NCBI RefSeq assembly: GCF_026914265.1
Contig: NC_069124.1
Location: 86,700,915 to 86,764,914 of the forward strand
DNA length: 64,000 nt
Direction of reading: 5' to 3'
Source of the DNA: Mya arenaria
Lineage: Eukaryota; Mollusca; Bivalvia; Myida; Myidae
In this document: positions 874 through 63,534 of the stretch, piece after piece
Layout: the number at the start of each line of letters is the position of its first letter
Numbering within the stretch: position 1 is the first letter of the stretch
Notes under the pieces: generated by a model
The model's input: only the letters and a program-made list of their open reading frames with translations
Told to the model about the DNA's origin: nothing
Database searches by the model: none
Made by a program: the position numbers and the translations under genes

Positions 874-1075
874 GTCCGGTTAGCGTAGTGGTAAGCGCAC
901 TCGATTCTCATCAAGGTGACCTGAGTTCGATTCCCGGCCTGGGTGCAAGTGAGTTTGGTTAGTGGTCACCAAGCCGGACAAGTGGGTTTTCTCCGGATAC
1001 TACAGTTTCCCTCACAACACAAGACCACAGCCTCGCGCAACATCGTGCAAACAAGAGTGACTTAGTAGAAGCTAT
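874..1075 (+). repeat. tRNA-derived SINE
   Basis: The head looks like a tRNA: a box-A-like 'TAGCGTAGTGGTAAGCGC' is followed about 35 bp later by a box-B 'GTTCGATTCC'. After the head (ending near 947) comes a body with 'TTTTCTCCGGATACTACAG' and 'CACAACACAAGACCACA', which resembles conserved SINE body domains reported in molluscs (from memory). It is unlikely to be a functional tRNA because the acceptor arms do not pair convincingly. It lies about 360 bp upstream of the NCBP1 start codon. Confidence 0.7.
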
Positions 1076-33512: not shown

Positions 33513-33739
33513 TTTGTTCAATTACGTAAAGTGGGCAATGGATAAATTTGCGCCATTAATTCGCAATAGCAGCAACAAAATTTGACATACTCAATTTACG
33601 CTAACTTCTGAACAACTACATTCGTTCACTTTTCAAAAAGCACAATACAAAATAGTTTATTCCTGAAAATACGAGTTAATATGATATTCCTTAAATTCGA
33701 ATGTATTCGTTACCTCAGGTTTCACTTTCGGTTTGCCGG
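33513..33739. promoter_or_regulatory. SDHAF4-side half of a probable head-to-head promoter
   Basis: These 227 bp separate the SDHAF4 start codon (minus strand) from the Ginger1 target duplication. Without the transposon, the next sequence would be 46280 onward, about 68 bp before a 3' acceptor-like site and 88 bp before the TRIM-like start codon. The promoter role is inferred from gene geometry; no specific binding site is claimed. Confidence 0.5.
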
Positions 33740-33808
33740 TGTAACGTTGTAAAGTGACCCCCATAGAATAATGACCCCCCGGTCATTATTTTATATAAAA
33801 TAATGACC
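33740..33808 (+). repeat. Ginger1 left terminal inverted repeat, 69 bp
   Basis: It is identical over 69 bp to the reverse complement of 46207-46275. It contains an inner palindrome around TTTTATATAAAA and two TGACCCCC-type motifs. Confidence 0.97.
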
Positions 33809-33960
33809 CCCGGTCATTATTTTATATAAAATATTGACCGGGGGGTCATTATATTATGACTGGGGGGTCATTATATTATGACTCCTCACACGTAGAAAAA
33901 TGACCCCTCACGTAGAAATGTGACCCCCTATAGAATAAGGACCCCCCCCCAATCCAAACC
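33809..33960. repeat. Ginger1 left subterminal repeats
   Basis: Variants of GGTCATTATTTTATATAAAA, GGGGTCATTATATTATGACT and TGACCCCTCACGTAGAAA are repeated in both orientations just inside the TIR. They could be multiple transposase-binding sites (inference). Confidence 0.7.
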
Positions 33961-34154
33961 TTGACCTAACCTATCTAAGGTACACTTGCACAACATAATT
34001 ATCTTCATCCATAGACATCGGAGGAGAGATGGCACCCGTCCGTGCATGCGTCCATACTGCACGTTTTTTTTGACCGCAGTTAGATGGAATTGATCCAAGC
34101 TTCAGGGATTACCACTACCGATGCCTATTTGTGTGGAAAGAAAAAATGGTTAAA

Positions 34155-34235
34155 GTCTCCGACCGAGAATCACTTGCCCCTCACCGTTGTGAGTTCGACG
34201 CCTACCAGGGTCGTGTATGGGTGACAGGCATACAA
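34155..34235 (+). repeat. tRNA-like SINE fragment
   Basis: A box-B-like GAGTTCGACGCC follows a weak box A upstream. There is no convincing cloverleaf, and it lies inside the Ginger1 element. Confidence 0.35.
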
Positions 34236-34861
34236 ACTGTGCGCTGCTCAGTTTATCATTTAAAACATAGGCGATGGACTGCATAGGAACGTTCCATCAA
34301 CAAAATACGCAACTACTTGTTGTAATTTACGGCCTGTTTGAATATCAACAATCAAAAATATTTATAATCACAGAACTAGCTAGTTTTCAGGGGGCGAGGG
34401 TGGCTGGATTTCAATCTAGTATCGTTGGACTTCTTACCAGAACTCGTCTAATCCTGATCTGATGTAACATACTTCGATAGCTTCCTCGCCTAAGAATCGA
34501 ATCTGTGCAACTGGATTAGGAGTCAACTATATAAACCTCTCTGCGATTGAAATTAAATAATTATTAATTATACAAGCAGAATCACTGTAAGTGCACTGTA
34601 AGTGACAAGTGTTTGTTAGTGATTTGAATCATTTTCGTAGTCATCAAAGTTGTATAGTGATTAAACGTCCCACACAGATTAATGGAACTAGCAATGATGA
34701 ATGACTTAAAAATATTATCCCTTTTTTCTTTTCATGACCATTCGAAAAGTGGTTTTAGAAATCATTTAGCACAAAAAGGATAAGCAATTCATGCAAAAGA
34801 TCTGAGTTACAGGTTAATTACAGCAACCTCTTATTATCATAAATGTTCTTTCTTCCCCAGG

Positions 34862-34948
34862 ACTGTGTACCATTGGAACAACCTACCACTTACTGTTGCC
34901 CTCCTCCCTACCCCTGAGCAGTTCAGTGCAGCTATATTTAAGAAATGA
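34862..34948 (+). pseudogene. C-terminal scrap of a non-LTR retrotransposon reverse transcriptase
   Basis: The frame starting ACTGTGTACCATTGGAAC encodes TVYHWNNLPLTVALL then PTPEQFSAAIFKK and stop. 'R-T-x-x-x-WN-x-LP ... S-x-x-x-F' is the usual C-terminal tail of many LINE ORF2 proteins. Only about 29 codons remain. A fold-back palindrome begins at its stop codon. Confidence 0.6.
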
Positions 34949-35098
34949 ACGCCTTCTCGCGTCGGTTCACGATTATATGAATACAACAAGTCTCGTGCAT
35001 AGTTCGTAAACCCCGAAGGGGTTTACGTTAACTATGCACGCTACTTGTTGTATTCATATACCCGTTGAACTATAGCGAGAAGGCGTTCATTTCTTATA
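34937..35098. repeat. Fold-back palindrome, ~75-bp arms
   Basis: The left arm AAGAAATGAACGCCTTCTCG continues through ATGAATACAACAAG and GTGCATAGTTCGTAAACCCC. The right arm is its near-perfect reverse complement, ending GGCGTTCATTTCTT. The loop is only a few bases around CCCGAAGGGG. Confidence 0.92.
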
Positions 35099-35384
35099 TT
35101 TATATTATCATTTATATTATTTCTACTTATATCAAAAGAATAATAGTCGATTTATTGGATTATCTTCTAAGAAAATCGATTGCATCTTATTAACACGACG
35201 ATCGCGTCCGTTATTCGGAAGAGCGGTGGCCAGCCCATATGACGTCACGGAGACTTGTTTATTTCGTATGTGCCAATCAGATTGCGTGACGAAATATCTC
35301 GCTCATTTTTTGAAGGAATTTAACATTAACTTGAGATATATTTTAACCTTAATTAGAAGACGTGTCGCGCACACCACCCAGATC

Positions 35385-36005
35385 CGCTCGTCAAAGGTCA
35401 AGGTCACACTTGGAGTCGGCGCAAAATCCGTGTCCGGAGCATAACTTCTATATGGATGGAGGGATTTTAATATAATTTGGCATAAATGTTCTCCATGGCA
35501 AGGCGGTGTGTCGCGCGAAAAAATTATGTCTCTGTGGCAAAGGTCAAGGTCACACTTAGAGGTCAAATGTCAAATAACAAGTTCAAGGTTACATAGACCT
35601 TAAAACTGAAAACGGTTTCCGCTCAATAACTTAATTATTGTTCAACCTTCAGCTGCCAAACCTGATAGGATGATCACCCATATTGAGTAAATGACCCCTA
35701 TTGTTTTTGGGGTCACAATATCAAAGGTCAAGGTCATTATCATTCTTTCATCTTCACAAATGTCCATTATGAATCTTTCTGTGAAAATTTAAACCTACAA
35801 AGCGGGCTCGACATCTGCCCGTGGGCATGCAGAATGTATTTCTAGTTAACCCTTTTAAACATTCTTTTAAATCTTTTTAAACTACTCTTTAAACCTTCTT
35901 GCGATTTTGACGCGCAACCATGTCTACGTCCCCGGGGGTGTTTGACATTACCGGAAGACAGACAGACAGACGGACGGACGGACAAACGGACAGACGGACG
36001 GACAT
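35385..36005 (+). repeat. Degenerate AGGTCA-rich tandem element with ACGG microsatellite
   Basis: GGTCAAGGTCACACTT recurs near 35395 and 35543, followed by diverged units with TCAAAGGTCAAGGTCA. The element ends in a GACAGACGGACGGACGG tract (about 35960-36005). The same layout is seen at 43786-44356 and 55360-55990. Confidence 0.7.
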
Positions 36006-36387
36006 ACTTCTAATTTTGACCTAATATGACTCAGTTTTAAACTCACTCGAATTAACTAGCATTCTGACCAAATTTTATAAAGATTCATATAAAAATGTGG
36101 CCTCTAGAGTGTTTTTACTTTTGTGTGAATATAGATACGGGTCTTGGTAGCATTATCGTTGAATTTGCTAGATCTGATTTTATCACATGACATCGCTTGT
36201 TTTTCATGTAATATAATCATTACGAATTTCTTTATATTTAACACGTGTAATATAACTTTGACGTGACTCATTTCCGCCAATACATTCCATATAGAAAAAA
36301 GGCGTGAAAAGCGTGCGTACTCATAGCGTTAAAAAGGGTTTATTTTATATGTTTTATTTTTATGTTTTAAGTCATGTGATAAAACGA

Positions 36388-36541
36388 ATCTCACATTCGT
36401 TGTCAAAAAATATAATATTTTATTAAACTCGTTCAAGAAAATGTTATAAAGCTCGCCCGAGGCTCGCTATGTAACATTTTCTTGAGCTCGTTTAATAAAA
36501 TCTTATATCATATGACAACTCATGTGAGATCCTATATATCC
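36388..36541. repeat. Fold-back palindrome, ~70-bp arms
   Basis: The left arm from ATCTCACATTCGTTGTCA through TTTTATTAAACTCGTTCAAG pairs imperfectly with the right arm ending CATGTGAGAT. The short loop is around GCCCGAGGCTCG. It is unrelated in sequence to the palindromes at 29925 and 34937 but has the same architecture. Confidence 0.85.
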
Positions 36542-36846
36542 GTGGTTCGGGAGTGTTGTTCGGTATATAATAAGGACAATTTCATAAACGAAAGGACTTT
36601 TTATTTAAAACTGTATGGAATATAGAGGCGAATCCAACAAAACGTCCCAGGGTGTTGACCTGTGCTTTGGTAAAACTACATGTCACATATGTTTATATCT
36701 TAAGCTATTATTTTAGTTAGTAAATCACACAAGGTATATTTAGCACGCATTGTTATGCTCATCAGATGCAATATGTTAAACCAAATTTAGCATAAATTGT
36801 ATCGTTCTCCACTGAGTTGTTGATTTATTCTTGCACGTGTCACTTA

Positions 36847-39800
36847 TCAATTAAGTATGTTTTCGACATCGCTCCAGTCACATACTATATTGAAAATATT
36901 TGCATCCACCTCGTCAGATAACCCACGCAGCCCTTCTACATTGTAAGGCGTGTTAGTAAAAGCCTTCACATATACAGTCTTTACACTTTTGTCAAGTTTT
37001 AATAGCAAGGCTTCGTCTGCGTAACAATTCACTAAAGCAGCATCTAATATGTCATCACTTATAAGGGCGTGGTATCTTTCTGGAATGTGGTTCCGAATTC
37101 GTTTGTATGGCTTTCTTGAGAACTCTTCGCCATCTACCTCTAGCACCGGGACAAAATGGTCGCTGGAATTCTGAATGTACACTGCTCGACCCCTTAAATT
37201 ACCACCAATGAGGCCTAACGGTTTGTATTCTAACCAACGCCACTGTTCCTTACTGCCATACTGTGAATAAACATACACAACGCTTCTGGTGAGAGTTGCA
37301 AAAGCAAATATCTCCACTTCTGTTCCCCAAGTGTTTTCGGAGGCCATCATTGACGTGTCTAGATATCTGGAAACCGAATCACGTGTAATGCCTTTCATTA
37401 GAGTTTCGTTTTCTTTCATGAAGTCAACAATCGCTTGCCTTATCAAGCTATGGTGTGTTTGTACGCCAAAAACTAAATAACTGAATGTTCTAAACAAACA
37501 ATTGCCATCCCCACGCATGTTTACAGTTTTAGTAGGTTTGGCGTCTCGTCGTATATATTTGTCTGGACCGGATGCATACGTGTTTTTGACTGCCGACTTA
37601 AATACACTCGAGATTTGTTCCTGCCATTCTTGATTAGATGGTCTGAATTGAAATGGTTGGGGTTCTTGATTAGTAGATTCTGTAGAATTGGTAGGTTGTG
37701 TTGCAACATCTTCTCGCGATACTCTTCTCTTTTTTGGAGGGAGATTGCAGTCGTCAGATTTATCGTTTCTTTTTGCAGGTCTTTCAAACGCTTTCTCGTT
37801 TGCTTGGGTTCCTGTTTCTTTGTTTATTAGACTGTGGTCATCTTTTGGACCTTCAGTTGGTCGCTTTTCTGTGTTATCTGTAGCAGCATCGTCATTACTC
37901 TGCCTATAGCGATTCAGTCTGTTCCCACTTACACTTGTTTTCATTCCTTCTAGGAAATAAGTGCCTTTTCCAGTTACTTTTGTTATTTTGAATGGTCCTT
38001 TCCATTTTAGACCCAATTTCCCTCCTTTTCTCGTCAATTTTCTGGTGTTATGAAGAAGGACTTGGTCGCCGACTTCAAAACCTGCTGTATCGTCTTTAGG
38101 TAGTGAAGAATCGTAATATTTCTTCTGCTTCGATTGTGCCGTTTTAATATTGGACGATGCTTCTTTTCTGTTGCACGACAGTTTAATGAACGAGTCTATT
38201 CTTTCCTTTAGTGACAATTCAGAGTCTTGGTTATCATCCGATTGCATTGCTAAGTCTAGTTCTATTGGTAAGCGTGCGTGCCTTCCAAACACAAGATAGA
38301 ATGGTGTTTGTTTCGTCGACTCATGTTTAGACGTTCTATAGGCAAACAGTACGTATGGTAACTTAATGTCCCAATTTTTCTGCGACAAATCTACACTGTG
38401 CACAAGCATATCGCACAAAGTCCTGTTAAATCTTTCAGTATGTCCTCCTGTTTGTGGGTGATATGCTGATGCAATTCTATGTTCTATCCCAAACTGCTTG
38501 CAAAACTTTTCATTCAAGTCGTTGCAGAATTCTCTCCCCTGATCCGTTATTAATACGCTGGGGCAACCATGTGTCGTGACAAACTTTGTGAATACTGATA
38601 GTACAGTTTCAGATGACTTGTCTGGAATCCCTTCTGCCTCTACCCATTTTGTCAAATATTCTGTTATAACGACAATGTACTTGTTTCCTGAAATGTATAA
38701 ATGTAAGCATTTTACAATACTTATTTTAATCAACGATGCATTGTCAAAGACAATACTAGTATATCCCCAGCCGATAGATGTTTCTTTTCAAGTTTGAGTT
38801 TGCATAGAAACTAGAATTTCATTCTGCATGTCTACGGGCCAGCATCGCAGTTTTAAGATGTTGCATAAAAATTCCCTCATGCATATAGGATATCCTCTAG
38901 AAAAGCACTTCTAATGACCTCTGTTATCTTTACCTTTAACTGGAGACCTGGTTGATGCGTGCGACACTAGATCTCATGGTAGTTAACATTTGTGTGAAGT
39001 TATAGTAAAAAAAATCTCTTCATGCAGTTACCAGATATGCCCTGCACAAGCATTTATCAGTGATCTCTAAGAAGACCTTTACCTTTGACCCATAAACCCA
39101 GTTCATGCGCGCAGAACTAGAACTCATGGAGGTGATCACTTGTGTGAAGTTTTTACAGAAATTCCTCCATTTTCATTCAAATTGGAGTTATGGTCCGTAA
39201 AAATCAGGACGGACACATGCACGCACATATAGCGAACATCAAAACCTGGCGACTAAGGGTCGAGTTCACCGAAGGTGGGCTCGACAAAAATGGAAGGAAA
39301 ATAAAAAAGCACTACTCTGTTTCTTAATAATATCTTTCTCAAGTTTACAGTTGATATGTTCTATACAAACTACTTTAAGAAAAAAATCCCCCATTCATTT
39401 CGCTTGAAAATTGCAAATTGCTAGTCAAATGCTATAACTCTTAAAAAAAATAATTGAAATCTGGCCAATAGTCTTCAAGAAATAGCCCGGAAACAAAATT
39501 TGGACGGACGGACAGACGGGACAGACGGACGGAGGGCAATCCTATCTCGGTTACACCGGTAGGGGAGTTCCATAAAAAAATTCAATGTACTTTTGGAGAT
39601 ATAGTGGAATCCAGTTAGGTTAAAGATGTGTTGAATGTTTTTTAAAGCAGACAGACAGACGGACGCAAAAACGAAAAAAATAAATAAATAAAAAGACGTG
39701 CATAATCTCCATATTGCCCTTTATCACTATTCCAAGTTTCATGAATTTTTTTTAAGTATTTTGAAGATATCGCGGGATCCAGATTTTCGGACGGACGGAC

Positions 39801-42800
39801 GGACAGACGGACGGACGGACAGACTGACGGAGGGCATTCCTATAGTCCTCGTAGGGGACTAATAAGCCTGATCATATTTGACTGACAGGTCATAAACAGC
39901 TGGTACATTGACATATCAGCTGGCAACCGTCGACGGCGTTTAAGTTACAGAACTATCAAAATTTAATTTAATAAACTATGGTTTTCCCGTAAAAATACAG
40001 AACTATCAAAATTTAATTTAATAAACTATGGTTTTCCCGTAAAAATACGACATATATTTACAGTGCTTAAAAAGAAATGCAGTTGCTTTCGCACATGGCC
40101 CTGTTTCACATGGGCGGTCGCTTTGCTTGTAACTAATCGTAAACTGCGTAAAATCTATTTCAGTTTACCACCACTCAACAGGTGCATTACCGATACGTCT
40201 CTACCGCTCCAGTAACTAAAAATCTCAAGTTAAACTGACTACAATGTATTACAACGTTTCAAATGAGTACGGTGGTACAGAGGTGAAATACCCAGTAGGT
40301 TGTTTTCCACCATCATTTAGCATTAACTTCACCGTCAAACCACGTGAAGACTGGACATGGTGATTTTATCAATATAAGTATATTGTAACTTAGCAAACTG
40401 ATCCTTATAGAAATATGAGTCGCATCATTACTTTTATGCATAATAGTGACTAAAAATGAGCAGTGCAACCGTTGGTACTATGTGAAGGGCGTTTTCTATG
40501 TGTAGGGGAGATGTAAAATTATGACCCCCAGTCACAGTTTATGACCGGGGGCACAATATTATGACTCTGCCTCACACAGAAAATAACCCTCATATAGTGG
40601 TTTGTGTGAGACTCATTTTCCTATGTGTGGAGGAGTCGTAATATTATGACCCCCGGTCACAGTATTATGACCCCCCGGTCATAGTATTATGACCCCCGGT
40701 CACAGTATTATGACCCCCGGTCATAGTATTATGACCCCCGGTCATAGTATTATGACCCCCAGTCATAGTATTATTACGGGGGTCATAACATTATTATGCC
40801 CTGTGGTGCCGCATAGCGGTGTTGCCGCATAAAGGTGGTCGGACTCGTTTATGCGGTGATTTTCAACGCATATAGAGGGTGACCACCTTTATGCGGCGAC
40901 ATGCCACGCATAAAACAACTAGATATGTGTCCATAGGACACTGGTGCACCCCTACATGATGCTTAGTAACATGTTATATCATTTGATCTTTAGCGCATAT
41001 TAAGTTTGTCTTAAAAAGGTTGTTGTGCTCAAGCATGAAGAAAACTAATAAATAAATAGCAAAGTTTTAGTCACTTTTGGGAAATTTCAAACTTTAAAGT
41101 CCCATAAGGCTTTTATTTTTATGTTAAAAATGGGTTTAACATTTGTCTAAATAGGGAATGTCAACAATAAAACGTAAAGAAACACTCACTTTTAATTATC
41201 CTACATGTAAACATATAGTAAAAAGAATTAAGGGAGGTAATAAAATATTTTGTTTTCCTTATAATGCTTATTGGATATACAAATCTGTTAAAAAGCTTTA
41301 AGAAAACAGTTATTTCTTATATAATTTAACTTGAAAAATATATAATTTCTTTAGTATACTTTAGTCACAAAAATAGTGGCAGCCACTCCAAACACAAAGG
41401 CCTTATGAGGCTTTAAATTTGAAGGTCAAGGTCATTCAGAGGCCAAGGTTATCTTCATATTAATTTTTTGAAGGTCCAGTTCAAAGCTTTGTTGTGTTCA
41501 AATATGAAATTAATAAGTATATTAATACCAAAATTATTACTTCACAAATATTTCCTTATATAATGTATAGTGAATAAAACAACAAAGGGCCATAATTCTG
41601 CTAAGACTAAACGCAGCAAAAATTCCTGTCTGTACGATCATCAACATATTAAGGTTGATCATCTGTGAAAGTTTGAACAAAATCCCCCAAGCGGTGTAGG
41701 AGGAGTTGCGTTCACAATTTTTTTTCCATATATAATGTATAGTGAATAAAACATCAAAAGGCCATAATTTTGCTAAAACCAATCACAGCCAAAATTCCTG
41801 TCTTTACGATCATCTACACATTAAGGTTGATCATCTGTGAAAGTTTGAACAAAATCCACCAAGCGGTGTAGGAGAAGTTGCGTTCACAATTTTTTTCCCT
41901 ATATAATGTATAGTGAATAAAATATGCCCCCACTTAAGATGGAATGACCTTCGGAACTTAAGACTTTTTCAGAGGAAGAGAGAGTGAGTACATAAAACTA
42001 GATCCTGGTCTGGTTGAAACTTCATAGAAGTAACTAGTAATTATCGTTTATGTTTTAATGGGTTTCTTTATGCGGCGAAAGGGGGCCTTTCTGCCGCCTA
42101 AACATGCCCTCTGCATGCGTTGAAAATCGCCGCATAATTTTGTTTGACCATCTTTATGCAGCAACACCGCTATGCGGCACCACAATGCCCCGACATATAT
42201 TGTCTACGAGTCAAAGTCACCAGGGTCTACCAAAGCAGCCCAACAAACCGACAGACAAAACTTACCCTGATAAGAGGTTTCTAGAGGACCTATAAGGTCC
42301 ATGCCCACTTGCTTGAAAGCCTCGGCGGGAACTGTGATAGGTCGCAGTGGCTTCTTTGCTTTCTTCAGGTTCACCTTTCTTTGACAGTTGTCGCAGTTCT
42401 GTATAAACGTGTGTACATCTTCGAAACATCCTTTCCAGTAAAACCTAGTCGAAATCTTTTCCCATCTGAAACAAAGCAAACATAACTATTAGTCCAGATA
42501 AGTTACCAAAATACAGTCAACCTTGCCTTAGCGACTCACTGATTTAGACAACTTCCTGCCGTATACGACCCTGTTTACGACCGCCTGACGTAAAAAAATC
42601 TATATAAAGTCACTGACTGAATTAAAAGACTCCCTGTCTGACGCCACAAACGACCGTAATGTTTGCACCCCGTGATGATAATATGGCTTAATTAAACGAA
42701 TTTCATGCATTTTTCAGTCATTAACATATAGCGCTTCGGATCTTGGATTTCTTACCAGCGTGTTAACTTTACTGTGTGCTATGGCAAAAATGTTTATTTT

Positions 42801-44262
42801 TCTCTTTTATTATCTGAGTTAAGTCAATTTAACCATAACTTCTAATATGTCCAAAATTGGACGATCTGTGGATGCACGAGTTCATTTTATATAATCCGTA
42901 CGAACAACTTTTCTTGTGAGAAAATCGAATTGGAGCTACCAACCTAATTAAAATTTCGAAATTTCAAAATCCCTGCTCCTTTTAGTATTACCAAACAATA
43001 ATAAAATATGATGGAAATATAATCTCATATAAACCTATCCATTACCCGATGAATAAACGCGGGATTTGAAAACTCAACCGATGTGCAGTAATATGATATC
43101 ACGGCAGACAAAATGGCTTGCAAAACAAGTAAAAAGGAATTAGACAAATAATAATGCAAATACGTATACATATTCTAAATAGGGAATATCTTATATCAAT
43201 TTAAATACCATAATCCAAGAAAAAGACAGGCATCAGGATTTACAAGAACAAATAATAAATTGAAACACTTGACGTTAGTGGACCTGAATTAAAAGACTCC
43301 CAGTCATACGTGACCTTTTTGTTAAGGTCTCACGGAAAGTCACCTATTACAAGTTTCACTGTAGTATCATTACTAAAAATAAAGCTAGCCATGGATGCAC
43401 CTGAGACAAGTTGAAATCCAATACATGTTGTTCTAAATGTTCTAAATGACGATAGAATTATTAGAATTAGTTTTGAGTTTACATAAGCAACTTTCAATGA
43501 CTGTGGCGTAGTGGTATAATGGAAGAATGCGGAACACTACACATGTTATGATCATGGGTTCGATCCTCATAAGTGCACAGATACAACCTTTTCCTTTTCG
43601 GCGGAATTCAAATACTTTCCTGGCATTCTTATAGTTTACTTGGAGGATACTGTCTACTTATTATGTGTACTCGGACCTTATTTGAATTATACATGCAAAA
43701 TCGAGATAAGTGAGGTTCTCGTGATTTAGATTTTTACATAACATTACTAAATACAAACTATGTAATTCTTTCCAAAAATGAAATAACAAGAGCTGTCACT
43801 GTAAGAGACAAATGCCCCCCTAGCACATTGACCTTAATTTGACCTTTGACCTTGAAGGATGACCTTGACCTTGAAATGTTTGAACTCAAAATTTGCAATT
43901 CTGTGAAGTTTGATTCAAATCCATTCAATAGTAAAGAAGTTATGGCTGAGACACGAAAAAATTGAACTTTGACCTTTAAGTGTGACCTTGACCTTGGACC
44001 TGGGGGACCCGAGAGTTGGATGCGACACACCGTCTCATGGTGCTTTACAATTCTGTGAAGTTTGATTCAAATCCATTCAATAGTAAAGAAGTTATGGCCA
44101 AGACACGAAAGATTTGAACTTTGACCTTTAAGTGTGACCTTGACCTTGGACCTGGGGAACTGAGAGTTGGACGCGACACACCTTCTCATGGTGCTTTACA
44201 ATTCTGTGAAGTTTGATTCGAATCCATTCAACAGTTAAGAAGTTATGACGAAGACACGAAAC

Positions 44263-44296
<34 letters not shown>

Positions 44297-45544
44297 AACG
44301 GACAGACAGTGCAATCACTATATGCCCCCCACTTTGTGGGGGGGGGGGGGGCATAAAAAAAACTTCCTCACTTGAGGTTCGAACCCACAACCGCTATCGT
44401 CATAGATCTGAACGATACCACTGGGCCAGCGACTCTATATGAGAAATTAATATCTGTAATTTCATTAAGTACAGAGCATTTTAGAGGACAATTAAATTAA
44501 AGTGAATATGCTAATGCATCAAGTAAATAAAATACTTATCAAAACAATAACATTTACCTGGAGTCATCCGATCATTACACCCCTATTTATTGACAATAAA
44601 CTCGTATCTCATAATCAGCTTTTTTAAACGGACTATACTTTAATATTGCACACTGCATATCAAAATAAACCAGTATCATTTACTATTGGCATGAAAAGCG
44701 GACAATATATAGACAAAACACTTTATTTCAGTTTTATCTAATAATGGAATGATCCAAAGACCTGTTCACCTATATTATAAACTTTAAAATCAAGTACCGT
44801 TATATATTCTTTACCTTTTTCAGTATAATGGTTTTGTCAGCGAAAACCAAAATATTGCGTTCGGACTGTTCTCACAATATATTTACAGTTATTATAATCG
44901 AAAATTAATCATAACTGATACAAAGATCTAGAGCTTAATGTTAGTTTGTAAAACGACTCATCTGATACGCCTTATTTATACATACATGACTGTTTTAAAG
45001 CATGAAATAACTTTGAGAGTATCCCCTGCCTGTCGGTTGTTCGCTCTCAGTGTCCGTGTCCGTCATAATCCGTACAAGTCTAATAACAAGATAGTTGTCT
45101 CGTTATAACGAGATACTTAGTCGTTTTTACGAGATATTTATCTCGTTATTACGAGTTCAGTCACGTTTTGACGCTTTTGTTATTCAGCTTTCGTACTAAT
45201 TTAAATAATCTTAAATGTCATATCTAACACAGGCTCACAGGAATCACAAGTTCCTTTTTGGTCATGATAATGAAATCATTATATCAAACTTACGTTTTTG
45301 AAACTCCCAAATGTCCTCCGTGATCTGATGCATGCATGCTCTGAATGATGTCATCTGTCTTCCCTTTCTTAACAACTTGCAAACGTTTTGATGAGCTGGT
45401 TTTCTTATAATACAACCCGTCATCAAAAATAAAAGGTTTGCACTTTCTACGAAAATTCCTCTTTTTGTTCTTGTCTTTTACAGAAACGGGATACTTCCCA
45501 TTTTTTACAAACTCTACAACATCTGTGTAATCTTTCTCGTCCAT
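36847..45544 (-). CDS. Ginger1 transposase: Gypsy-type integrase fused to OTU protease, three exons
   Basis: Exons 45544-45294, 42465-42266 and 38687-36847 join in phase to 763 aa with no stop or frameshift. Order of parts: N-terminal FDDGLYYKK stretch; HHCC zinc finger (HASDHGGHLG about residues 71-80, CDNC 108-111); DDE integrase core with Asp140 (GMDLIGPL), Asp199 (TDQGREF) and Glu235 (HTERFNR), a D-35-E spacing; GPF motif 381-383 (LKWKGPFKI); a low-complexity linker with PPKKRRVSR (NLS-like); then an OTU domain with GDGNCLFR (Cys547) and DHFVPV (His661). The integrase would cut and join element ends. The OTU part is a deubiquitinase fold in other proteins; its role here is unknown. All catalytic residues I can check are present, so it may be active or recently active. 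Confidence 0.93.
38790..39875. repeat. Diverged tandem arrays with ACGG tracts in Ginger1 intron 2
   Basis: Units marked by 'GAACTCATGGAGGTGATCAC' and 'ATCTCATGGTAGTTAACA' followed by TTGTGTGAAG recur in 38790-39240. Two related tails follow, each ending in GGACGGACGGACAGACGG near 39510-39530 and 39790-39820. The second closes with an imperfect hairpin, TAGTCCTCGTAGGGGACTA. Confidence 0.65.
39946..40045. repeat. Perfect 50-bp tandem duplication
   Basis: The unit starting TACAGAACTATCAAAATTTA occurs at 39946-39995 and 39996-40045 without visible differences, so it is a very recent duplication. Confidence 0.95.
40510..40795. repeat. ~21-bp array of TATTATGACCCCCGGTCA motifs
   Basis: About nine copies of TATTATGACCCCCGGTCA(T/C)AG stand head to tail, with two inverted variants at the left. 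They share the TGACCCCC(C)GGTCAT core with the Ginger1 terminal repeats although they lie in the middle of the element. They abut the TIR element at 40802. Confidence 0.85.
40802..42184. mobile_element. TIR element nested in Ginger1 intron 2 (MULE-like), 1383 bp
   Basis: The outer ends TGTGGTGCCGCATAGCGGTG and CACCGCTATGCGGCACCACA are exact inverted repeats. Homology continues inward imperfectly for about 100 bp (GCCGCATAAAGGTGGTC, CGATTTTCAACGCAT). Direct ATGCCC flanks at 40796-40801 and 42185-42190 may be a 6-bp target duplication. The interior has no transposase frame; it holds two to three ~172-bp tandem units (TATATAATGTATAGTGAATA). Long TIRs suggest a MULE-type MITE, but a 6-bp duplication is short for that group. 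Confidence 0.75.
43500..43580 (+). repeat. tRNA-like SINE head
   Basis: Box-A-like TGGCGTAGTGGTATAATGG and box-B GGGTTCGATCC have near-tRNA spacing. The arms do not close well, so it is treated as a SINE relic in Ginger1 intron 1. Confidence 0.55.
43786..44356 (+). repeat. AGGTCA-rich tandem element with ACGG tract and terminal hairpin
   Basis: It begins AACAAGAGCTGTCACTGTAA, near TGCCCCCC. Three units contain TGTGACCTTGACCTTG and 'TTCTGTGAAGTTTGATTC'. It ends with GGACGGACGGACG, then the hairpin ATGCCCCCCACTTTGTGGGG...GGCAT. This is a clear full-length member of the family. Confidence 0.8.
44357..44440 (-). repeat. tRNA-like SINE head, minus strand
   Basis: On the minus strand, TGGCCCAGTGGTATCG (box A) and GGGTTCGAACCTC (box B) are correctly spaced. 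This is the best-preserved tRNA-like stretch in the window. It could be a degraded tRNA gene, but it sits at the edge of a repeat inside Ginger1. Confidence 0.5.
45095..45165. repeat. Cluster of TCTCGT...ACGAGA palindromes
   Basis: CTCGTTATAACGAG is followed by CGTTTTTACGAGATA and ATCTCGTTATTACGAG at regular short spacing. It is probably the end of another small element; no boundaries were seen. Confidence 0.6.
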
Positions 45545-46124
45545 GCTGCAAGGTTGGACTGACTGCTTACCACAGACCTTTATATATACACGCGTTTACG
45601 TAGAACTGCTTTCGGTGTCGCTGTCGTTTTCTTTGATGTTGAACGAGCGGCTTTTCTGAGGTAAATCAAAGGAACTATTTTTAGAAATGATGCAGTCTGC
45701 ATAAAACATAAAAAACACCGCTCAGTGACATCATGGACTTTGATGTAAGTCATGGCACGAACAGTGACTGCTTAAATAGCTCCTCAAAGCCTTGCATTTT
45801 TAACACATTCGTTTTAAGCAATGCCTCCACGGTATGAACAAAGGCTATCTAACGTCAGATGAAGTAGAACAATGTTGTCTTTGAAGTTGAATCATATACA
45901 GCTACGTTAAAGCGACTTATGTATATTGTATTACATTGATGATAATTTAAATGAAATTCAAATGGAAGCAATTTTATATTTCATTTCAATAGATGTAGAC
46001 ACAGCAGCTTCTGCAGCAGTAACATGCAGCGGCTCCAGAAGCAAAAACAACAACAACAAATATAAAAGCCATAGAAACACGACAGTGACTTGAATTGATA
46101 TAGATATGTTAGTAACAGGCTAAG

Positions 46125-46206
46125 TGGGGGGGGGGGGGGTCAATATTTTACAGATAAAATCGGGGGGTCATTATTTTATAAGGGGAGTCAGTATTTTATA
46201 GAAAAT
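46125..46206. repeat. Ginger1 right subterminal repeats
   Basis: A run of about 13 G is followed by GGGGGTCATTATTTTATA-type motifs, mirroring the left subterminal region. Confidence 0.65.
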
Positions 46207-46275
46207 GGTCATTATTTTATATAAAATAATGACCGGGGGGTCATTATTCTATGGGGGTCACTTTACAACGTTACA
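46207..46275 (-). repeat. Ginger1 right terminal inverted repeat, 69 bp
   Basis: Exact reverse complement of 33740-33808. It is followed at once by the second CCGG. Confidence 0.97.
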
Positions 46276-46279
46276 CCGG

Positions 46280-46367
46280 CAGCAAATTTTCCGTTCTAGC
46301 TTCTTTCGTTTTCATAACGACGTATACCAGTACATTTATTGTTTCAGAAAATTACCTGAAACGTCGT
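46280..46367 (+). promoter_or_regulatory. TRIM-like gene 5' flank displaced by the Ginger1 insertion
   Basis: Only 88 bp separate the transposon end from the likely start codon. TTTATTGTTTCAG at 46335-46347 looks like a splice acceptor, so there may be an upstream non-coding exon, now beyond or replaced by the transposon. The open frame happens to continue back into the TIR, which is judged fortuitous. Confidence 0.4.
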
Positions 46368-47501
46368 ATGGATACTAGTTATATGATTGAGCGCATACAA
46401 TGTCCTTTATGCACTGGCATATTTATTAAACCAAAATGTCTTGATTGTGGCCATGAATTTTGCGAAAGTTGTCTCAGAGGTCACATACTTCGGACAGTGC
46501 GTGCAGCCGGACATTGCATTACTGACTTTAACTCGAGTGAAGGACCTATCTTTCAGTCGAAACAAAAGACATTTAACTGTCCAGTTGAAGACTGCAATAA
46601 GGAACAGAAGCCACTCGATCATGACAAGGGTCCAGTAGATTGGGTTCATGATTACAATAATGATCTAAATACTCAAACACTTGTAGAAATTTGCACCGGT
46701 CAGCGTGGTGCCAGCTATGCTGTCTGTCACAATTGTAAAAATGTGGGTTTACAGAGAAAAGCATCTCACGTTTGTTTTAACCATAAAATGTTGTACTGCA
46801 CGACTTGCGCCTTTGTTCATGAGACAACCTATAAAACATACCAATACTGTTCTACAACACATGTAGCAGATGTTGAAAATGCACTTGTATTAACAAGCGG
46901 TGGAAAAATGGAAATTAGAGAAAAAGAGGGACTAGCAAAACAATGTGGCCCTTACAGCCAACCCAAAGCAACTAATGTGTGCAACGAGTGTAGCAAAGGA
47001 TGCTGTTCTAAATGCTTACCACAGAATCATAATGATAAGGGATATTTGCATGCTTCTGTTCACAAGTCAAAGTCATCTTCAGACATGCTCAAAGACACAA
47101 TAGCTGAGTTAGGAAAAGATTTAGATGAAATCAAAGAAAATATAAGAAAACAAATTGATGAACTGGAAAGCAAAAACACAGACAACCCTAAAACTAATTC
47201 AGATGAAGAACAGTCTGCTAAGGCTACAGTAGGAGAGGAGCATAATGAACTGGAAGGAGAGCAGAAAAGCTTGCCAAAGACAGAGGAAGCAAATGATGAT
47301 GTACATACAGAATCTTTTGCCAGGACTCTAGAAATGATGAATGCCAGATGCCAGTTCCTTGAAAGACATCACGAAAACATCCTTGTGCATATTGGTGACA
47401 ATGGCACTATGGCCTCAGATTGTACTGTAACAGAATTAGCAAATGAACTGAGAAGAACACGGTCAGAAATTATGGCTATTAAAAGTCGACTACTAAAATG
47501 A
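46368..47501 (+). CDS. RING and B-box (TRIM-like) protein, single coding exon
   Basis: The protein is 377 aa from the ATG at 46368. I prefer this to the longer frame from 46251 because that start lies inside the transposon TIR. An N-terminal RING finger has CPLC (12-15), CGHEFCESC and a final CPVEDC. A cysteine/histidine B-box-like block follows (CHNC, CFNHKMLYCTTC, then CSTTH), and a second (CNECSKGCCSKCLPQNH). After that come a predicted coiled coil (ELGKDLDEIKENIRKQIDEL) and an acidic, lysine-rich tail. No C-terminal NHL, SPRY or similar domain is present. RING plus B-box plus coiled coil is the TRIM architecture, usually an E3 ubiquitin ligase. The RING has a long insert before its last cysteines. 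It is head-to-head with SDHAF4. Confidence 0.88.
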   Translation: MDTSYMIERIQCPLCTGIFIKPKCLDCGHEFCESCLRGHILRTVRAAGHCITDFNSSEGPIFQSKQKTFNCPVEDCNKEQKPLDHDKGPVDWVHDYNNDLNTQTLVEICTGQRGASYAVCHNCKNVGLQRKASHVCFNHKMLYCTTCAFVHETTYKTYQYCSTTHVADVENALVLTSGGKMEIREKEGLAKQCGPYSQPKATNVCNECSKGCCSKCLPQNHNDKGYLHASVHKSKSSSDMLKDTIAELGKDLDEIKENIRKQIDELESKNTDNPKTNSDEEQSAKATVGEEHNELEGEQKSLPKTEEANDDVHTESFARTLEMMNARCQFLERHHENILVHIGDNGTMASDCTVTELANELRRTRSEIMAIKSRLLK

Positions 47502-62029: not shown

Positions 62030-63135
62030 GGGTTTCGAGTCAAAAGGTGCTAAAATAGCTACAAACATTTTCAGCAAGTTTGGTGAAAGTCAGATGAGAA
62101 TTGTTCAAGTTAGAGAGTAGACAAAGCTTAAATGGCAAGGGCAGTAATCCTGAAGTGCTTCGGGGCATTTGGCTGATTATCATACTTGACCGATTTATTT
62201 TACCAACAAATATTTTCAGCAAGTTTGGTGAAGATCAGATGATAACTGTTCAAATTAGACAGTGGACAAAGCAAAAATGGCAAATTTTGACCAATTCAAG
62301 GGCCATAATCCTGAAGAGCCTGGCTGGTTATAGAACTTTGCCAAGAATATATACCAACAAACATTTATAGTAGCAAGTTTTGTGAAATTCGGATAAAAAC
62401 TGTTCAAGTTTGAGAGTAGACAAAGCTAAAATGGCCAATTTTGATAAATTCAGGGGGCCATAACTCTGGAGTGCCTAAAGCGATTAGGCTGGTTATCGAA
62501 CTTGACCTAGATATTTCACCAACAAACACTTTCATGAAGTTTGGTGGAAATTGGATGAGAAATGTTCAAGTTAGAGAGCGGACAAAGCTAAAATGGACAA
62601 TTTTGACAAATTCAGGGGGCCATAACTCTGGAGTGCCTAAAGTGATTTGGCTGGTTATTGAACTTGACCGAGATATTTCACCAACAAACACTTTCATGAC
62701 GTTTGGTGGAAATTGGATGAGAAATGATCAAGTTAGAGAGCGGACAAAGCTAAAATGGCCAATTTTGACAAATTCAGGGGGCCATAACTCTGGAGTGCCT
62801 AAAGCGATTTGGCTGGTTATCGAACTTGACCTAGATATATCACCAACAAACACTTTCATGAAGTTTGGTGGAAATTGGATGAGAAATGTTCAAGTTAGAG
62901 AGCGGACAACATTGTGGAGCCGCCCGCCCGCCGCCCGCCCAATTTTGACAAATTCAGGGGGCCATAACTCTGGAGTGCCTAGAGCGATTTGGCTGGTTAT
63001 CGAACTTGACCTAGATAGTTCATCAACAAACACTTTCATGAAGTTTGGTGGAAATTGGATGAGAAATGTTCAAGTTAGAGAGCGGACAACATTGTGGAGC
63101 CGCCCGCCCGCCCGCCGCCCGCCCGCCTGCCATGG
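62030..63135 (+). repeat. 162-bp tandem repeat with chance-open reading frame
   Basis: Units starting GGGGGCCATAACTCTGGAGT lie 162, 162 and 180 bp apart, with older diverged units upstream to about 62030. As 162 is divisible by three, a 285-codon frame (62441-63298) stays open through the array; it repeats itself and is not called as a gene. The last units carry CCGCCCGCCCGCC runs. Confidence 0.9.
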
Positions 63136-63534
63136 GTGTTCCAATAATACAGCCATGGTAAGACGGGCGTATAATAAAAACAATGATATGCACAACCTAC
63201 CTCAATGTTTACTCAAAATAAATTTCTATTTACAGAGGTGGGCATTTAAAGTAAATAAAATTTACTTCCTGATTAATTCGGATACTCTCGGCTTTTAAGG
63301 TTGCATGCCTTATGAGTCATCAAATTGTTCCTTTTTTGGCCACTCTCAGAAACGATGTGTTTATAAATAGTTCTTGCGGAAAAATGCGACAGATTACTGA
63401 ATGAAATGGATAGTATCACTGTTTTTTCAGAAAACCGATGATGCATTGTTGTTCTCTTTCGATTTGGACCTGTAATTCAGCATGTTTTATCCCTTGTTTT
63501 GTTTTTTGTCAAAATAAAAGCAGAAACACTACAT
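63136..63534. other. No gene recognised
   Basis: A non-repetitive AT-rich stretch between two repeat elements; nothing supportable. Confidence 0.3.

Follow-up and report, generated by a model that had tools for sequence, protein, structure and literature searches.

The 64,000-nucleotide stretch of the soft-shell clam (Mya arenaria) genome studied here (C3:86700915-86764914, called the window throughout) contains a complete Ginger1 DNA transposon, a label that agrees with the features published for this group (PMC2836005). The data make it very probable that this is an autonomous Ginger1 of the OTU type, which moves as one 12.5-kb unit and has multiplied very recently in the clam. Dozens of near-letter-identical copies appear to carry the mobility enzyme, pointing to a very recent multiplication and perhaps to jumping that still goes on. 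Current mobility is likely, judging from the sequence, but unproven.

Ends and overall structure of the element

The element measures 12,536 bp between the outer ends of its two terminal inverted repeats (TIRs) and is bounded by a CCGG target-site duplication on both sides (33736-33739 and 46276-46279), the 4-bp duplication expected of Ginger1. Sequence comparison places the 69-bp TIRs at 33740-33808 on the plus strand, beginning TGTAA, and at 46207-46275 on the minus strand. The two are identical at 69/69 bases and mismatch from the next inward base on; the match grows to 75 bases if CCGG and two flanking bases per side are included. Both the length of the TIRs and their termini fall within the published description of Ginger1 (40-270 bp and TGTNR, respectively). 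The inner 28 bp of each TIR (33781-33808 on the left) form a perfect palindrome, and short arrays of related TGACCCCC / GGTCATTAT units run inward from both TIRs; repeat analysis puts the left subterminal array at 33809-33947, with approximate limits. A first-pass annotation of this DNA had called the perfect 69-bp TIRs and the CCGG duplication, with coordinates that proved exact. Its broader call, that of a complete Ginger1 whose integrase-OTU gene is intact, also stands, the ends, duplication, in-frame gene and domains all being present.

A predicted spliced gene for an integrase-OTU transposase

Three exons on the minus strand join in frame via GT-AG introns to give a predicted protein of 763 residues from the first ATG. 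Splice-frame and domain analysis assigns the N-terminal region and the start of an H2C2 zinc finger to exon 1 (45294-45544), which opens with the ATG. Splice-frame analysis then yields intron 1 (42466-45293; 2,828 bp), exon 2 (42266-42465), with the last part of the zinc finger region plus the first catalytic D, and intron 2 (38688-42265; 3,578 bp), which holds old nested repeats. Exon 3 (36847-38687), delimited by open reading frame (ORF) and domain analysis, encodes most of the integrase core, the GPF motif, a linker, the OTU domain and a C-terminal extension before the stop codon, and is the sole ORF of at least 150 residues inside the element. Four GT/AG combinations occur at or a few bases away from the proposed junctions, and only one of them gives an open frame.

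Relatives are consistent with this structure. A protein from Antedon mediterranea (P0007) has 42% identity over 99% of the query, in an alignment that crosses both splice junctions, and the alignment to a Mercenaria mercenaria protein (P0002, 66%) crosses the second. P0002 has unrelated, intron-like N-terminal residues up to the intron 1 acceptor point, as does P0004 up to that of intron 2; the breaks at these points suggest that the intron positions are probably common to relatives. The spliced gene model, predicted from frame, splice signals and relatives, is thus supported.

Three Pfam domains are found above their curated cut-offs: Integrase_H2C2 (PF17921, 1e-17), rve (PF00665, 7.8e-11) and OTU (3.5e-9); an SH3 domain (PF24626) matches below its cut-off only. 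The residues expected to be catalytic in the integrase are kept (D140, D199 and E235, with 35 residues between the last two, hence DD35E), as are those of the OTU domain (D544, C547 and H661), which is marked by GDGNC and DHF. The GPY/F motif reads WKGPF from residue 379, its GP being nearly invariant in the alignment. The names used for the catalytic residues and for GPF, GDGNC and DHF come in part from PMC2836005. The first-pass annotation's view that the catalytic residues are intact therefore holds at D140, D199, E235, D544/C547 and H661, and the GPF motif is present too. As for the YPYY motif of Ginger1, judged by eye, we find Y18-P19 and LYY at 44-46 where it would be expected, upstream of the zinc finger, and P0007 is alike. 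With its C-terminal OTU domain and its 763 residues, the transposase lies within the range described for Ginger1 (500-800 residues).

Among proteins of the PDB, the leading sequence matches are the integrases of Ty3 (7q5b, 8.3e-23) and prototype foamy virus; the OTU part has its matches in human OTUD5 and OTUD1. Exon 3 by itself was modelled with AlphaFold2 (612 residues; mean predicted local distance difference test score, pLDDT, 71.6; predicted template modelling score, pTM, 0.40), the linker at 264-340 being poor. In fold, this model resembles the intasomes of foamy virus and Ty3 as well as several proteases of the OTU type; the separation of its domains keeps the TM-scores for the model as a whole low. 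Behind the OTU domain, roughly 100 further residues form an extension that is common to P0001-P0004 and P0006-P0011 and missing from the more distant OTU proteins aligned. A quick tree with 47 rows, built without named Ginger1 reference sequences, puts the element in a nine-row clade of OTU relatives with a support of 100, and five Gypsy rows bearing reverse transcriptase (RT) occupy their own branch. The OTU label requires at least three changes on this tree, which implies repeated gain or loss of the domain.

Copies of the element across the genome

The 1,216,080,610-bp assembly (18 contigs) was searched with short sequences from the element. Its smallest contig, C18, bears a COX1 that is 99% identical to a cluster named after Mya japonica, ahead of Dreissena polymorpha at 84%, in keeping with a Mya host. 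Exon 2 (41-mer, up to 3 mismatches) and the right end (43-mer, up to 2 mismatches) each had 88 matches, all of them exact, and the left end (47-mer, up to 2 mismatches) had 91, of which 87 were exact. Pairing the ends with exon 2 gave 88 copies spread over all 17 large contigs (C1-C17). All but two are 12,473-12,547 bp long. Later insertions are suggested in the two longer ones, near 58.41-58.43 Mb on C14 (17,120 bp) and near 46.22 Mb on C11 (13,921 bp). At C4:20.94 Mb and C8:53.71 Mb, the left-end match lies on the opposite strand, which corresponds to shifts within the palindromic array; these copies measure 12,537 and 12,480 bp from end to end. The genome search for further copies proposed in the first-pass annotation has thus turned up 88 with both ends and exon 2, the opposite of what domestication would predict.

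A 37-mer from the outer end (up to 2 mismatches) matched 243 times, 122 forward and 121 reverse, compared to 0 for the reversed control, which excludes a chance origin of the end pattern. Among the 100 of these 243 matches that were listed, all were exact, and they formed 49 pairs of 12,480-12,542 bp with 2 single ends left over. No head-to-tail copies with one shared 4-bp site were found using exact 15-mers. In viral contigs, there was no protein relative and no exact end sequence; two stretches matched a pattern, neither of them confirmed.

Insertion sites and target preference

We examined 49 insertions (20 + 29) for a target duplication. It is a perfect 4 bp in 48, namely CCGG in 45, CCGC/GCGG in two and AGGG/CCCT in one; published Ginger1 duplications are CCGG in 75% and CCGT/ACGG in 24% of cases (PMC2836005). 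A G precedes (or a C follows) the duplication in 79/98 flanks as first scored, with two duplications entered as mismatches, compared to 16/106 flanks of the 53 background CCGG sites that the window has beyond the element (Fisher p ~5e-22). In the same tally, 27 of 44 CCGG insertion sites read GCCGGC. The preferred target is therefore GCCGGC and, more weakly, the wider palindrome TGCCGGCA. The flanks of 15 copies (30 flanks) gave one match only, between the two sides of a single copy. Since the flanks of different copies are unrelated, these are independent insertions rather than segmental duplications.

Age of the probable burst and competing explanations

End-to-end alignment covered eleven of the 88 copies (the window copy plus ten from C1 and C2), and coding intactness was assessed in these. 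In about 138 kb, they show four substitutions, none of which occurs in more than one copy and one of which is in the window copy, i.e. 2.9e-5 per site (0.8-7.4e-5). One copy has an extra 4-bp repeat unit, and the other differences are single-base length changes, nearly all in homopolymers. There are no large insertions or deletions between them, and all 11 encode an identical, intact 763-residue protein. At assumed (not measured) rates of 1e-9 to 1e-8 per site per year, the burst would be roughly three to thirty thousand years old. The youth of the element had been proposed earlier from its identical TIRs, weak grounds on their own; the four substitutions among 11 copies now bear it out.

A burst that was recent but is over would look similar: the element would have multiplied some thousands of years ago and now be silenced, with no copy moving. 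The four private substitutions do indicate that time has elapsed, as do the insertions that two copies (13,921 and 17,120 bp) seem to have received later. However, the identical protein in 11/11 copies and an exact exon 2 and right end in 88/88 argue against this explanation, which we consider possible, short of probable.

We think it unlikely that the near-identity is an artefact of assembly, in which error correction across a long repeat unified copies whose true divergence is greater. The published M. arenaria assembly that the present one resembles was built by FALCON-Unzip from PacBio long reads (PMC10663159), and most differences between the copies concern the length of homopolymers, the kind of error that usually persists in long reads. 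The separate positions, the duplications and the flanks are real either way, however, and the intact frame in every copy read, the private substitutions and the insertions all speak against wholesale overwriting.

Two further possibilities can be set aside, with next to no probability left to either. A domesticated host gene lying between repeats, as in the case of Gin-1, Gin-2 or Imagin, would be in keeping with an intact gene, and domesticated Ginger1 genes exist (PMC2836005; PMC12863088), but the retention of the residues expected to be catalytic and the scatter of 88 copies, complete with ends and target duplications, argue against it, the copy number refuting it outright. A remnant of a Gypsy long terminal repeat (LTR) retrotransposon with a Ginger1-like integrase is suggested by the resemblance of the core to Ty3 (7q5b), but is rejected on the inverted rather than direct termini, the lack of RT in the 763-residue protein (the element having no other ORF of at least 150 residues) and the tree, which sets the element apart from the five RT-bearing Gypsy rows.

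Several observations weigh against our interpretation of a complete Ginger1 that multiplied very recently and may still be mobile. The length of 12.5 kb falls beyond the 2.6-7 kb published for Ginger1, a descriptive rather than a diagnostic figure. One of the 49 duplications is imperfect, with one extra C on one side (C4:22.82 Mb), and three left ends have no partner. Moreover, 67 outer-end matches exceed two per full copy; these are probably the imperfect ones (1-2 mismatches), match neither exon 2 nor the subterminal sequence on the right at the mismatch levels allowed, and may be non-autonomous derivatives or sibling elements. P0001, the closest protein in independent data, has 4 internal differences in 602 residues, besides a first residue that differs as a start codon; variant copies therefore exist in the sample from which P0001 came. 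Smoothing of the repeat consensus in long-read assembly could exaggerate both the identity of the copies and their youth. Finally, all the evidence for it comes from genome sequence.

A candidate route of transposition

In the scheme we propose, the zinc finger and neighbouring regions of the protein would bind the TIRs and subterminal repeats, and the transposase would multimerize through its GPY/F module. It would then expose CA/TG ends and insert them, with a 4-bp offset, at a palindromic target resembling TGCCGGCA, with repair of the joints yielding the 4-bp duplication; end processing and strand transfer of the integrase type would be expected from the family. The OTU domain would probably act as a deubiquitinase on the transposase or on host proteins of repair or chromatin, an action on ubiquitin in transposition or repair having been suggested by Bao et al. 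(PMC2836005). The whole 12.5-kb unit, long introns and old nested repeats included, would move as a single piece.

How Ginger1 leaves its old site is stated as unknown in PMC2836005. A doubtful variant is that the element jumps in living clams today and multiplies by copy-out/paste-in instead of cut-and-paste. This would fit the nearly uniform size of the 88 copies and the mere three unpaired left ends among the matches. Copy-out/paste-in is the route taken by the bacterial IS3-type cousins of these elements.

Nested repeats and surrounding sequence

Intron 2 contains a nested, non-autonomous-looking DNA transposon of 1,383 bp (40802-42184) with a 6-bp duplication, ATGCCC, on both sides and end repeats 86% alike over 78 nt. 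Given these features, this nested element probably predates the burst by far and is a passenger in it. Taken as a whole, the picture suggests that a single autonomous unit multiplied in a recent burst, with old nested repeats as passengers. The nested intron repeats reported at first pass are indeed there, but do not represent damage to the window copy, the 11 aligned copies being free of large insertions or deletions relative to one another.

Also in intron 2, at 40635-40774, are 6.6 units of a 21-bp repeat (GTCATAGTATTATGACCCCCG) resembling the subterminal repeats; this array may be what remains of an older Ginger1 end. The 3′ region of the element holds two nearly self-complementary fold-back repeats (34933-35102 and 36378-36540) and a short plus-strand frame at 34811-34948, which ends in VYHWNNLPLTVALLPTPEQFSAAIFKK and a stop and which we take to resemble the 3′ end of a non-LTR retrotransposon.

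To the right of the element, a RING-finger ORF occupies 46251-47501 on the plus strand; its likely ATG, at 46368, is 88 bp from the element, with a splice-acceptor-like TTTCAG just ahead. The element probably sits in a 5′ intron of this ORF or in its upstream region. No homologue of the ORF was found at E 0.001 among 1,669 candidates. Elsewhere in the window, a plus-strand ORF of 285 residues (62441-63298) consists of near-identical tandem units, with no Pfam match above cut-off. ARAGORN reports a tRNA-like gene with no assigned amino acid at 874-946 (+), possibly a tRNA-derived repeat. Comparison with Rfam gave no match at gathering scores.

Relation to known elements and significance

The closest described systems are the OTU-type Ginger1 elements, Ginger1-1/2/3/11_HM of Hydra and an Aplysia element (PMC2836005), compared here, like other named Ginger1 families, by published description rather than by sequence. 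They have in common with the clam element the TGTNR termini, TIRs of 40-270 bp, the CCGG duplication, introns and a transposase of 500-800 residues with H2C2, DDE and GPY/F modules and a C-terminal OTU domain. The clam element differs in its length (12.5 kb vs. about 2.6-7 kb), the near-identity of its copies over their whole length, its wider palindromic target and the post-OTU extension common to its nearest relatives. The uncharacterized P0002 and P0007 have the same domain order and the C-terminal extension. In Ginger1 proteins with Ulp1 or PHD domains (e.g. P0043 of Argopecten irradians and P0068 of Halichondria panicea), the zinc finger and integrase core are alike, whereas the C-terminal domains are other than OTU and the tree branches are separate. 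Gin-1, Gin-2 and Imagin likewise derive from a Ginger1 transposase (PMC2836005; PMC12863088), but are host genes without flanking TIRs, Imagin also being without the DDE triad, whereas the clam element has its triad and ends intact and 88 copies. Steamer, from M. arenaria itself, also shows a palindromic preference around its target duplication (PMC10663159); in contrast, it is an LTR retrotransposon with a 5-bp duplication and has been shown to be expanded in the transmissible cancer. The comparison with Steamer is by description.

The OTU domain, CCGG duplications and a young, high-copy family are already published for Ginger1: Ginger1-2_HM is a young family of >100 copies, some of them <1% from the consensus (PMC2836005). 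The remark made at first pass that intact Ginger1 copies are uncommon is thus partly right, complete families, one of >100 copies, having been published. Ginger1 was previously known from a gastropod (PMC2836005), and a survey counts 98 Ginger elements among the molluscs that it covers (PMC10294476). We found no mention of a Mya Ginger1 or of a Ginger1 transposition assay in literature listings, and neither PMC10663159 nor PMC11978232 has the word 'ginger' in its main text. What is new is how long the element is, how nearly identical its copies are, the greater width of the target palindrome and the C-terminal extension that the nearest relatives also have.

With 88 near-identical copies, defined ends and an intact enzyme, the element is a ready substrate for a transposition assay. 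Its host is a clam with transmissible cancer, so that its insertions could be tracked in public tumour and healthy genomes. DNA transposons are over-represented among the repeats expanded in that cancer (8/45 vs. 171/4,471 in the library; PMC10663159). If the element does jump today, it could be among the DNA transposons reported to have expanded there.

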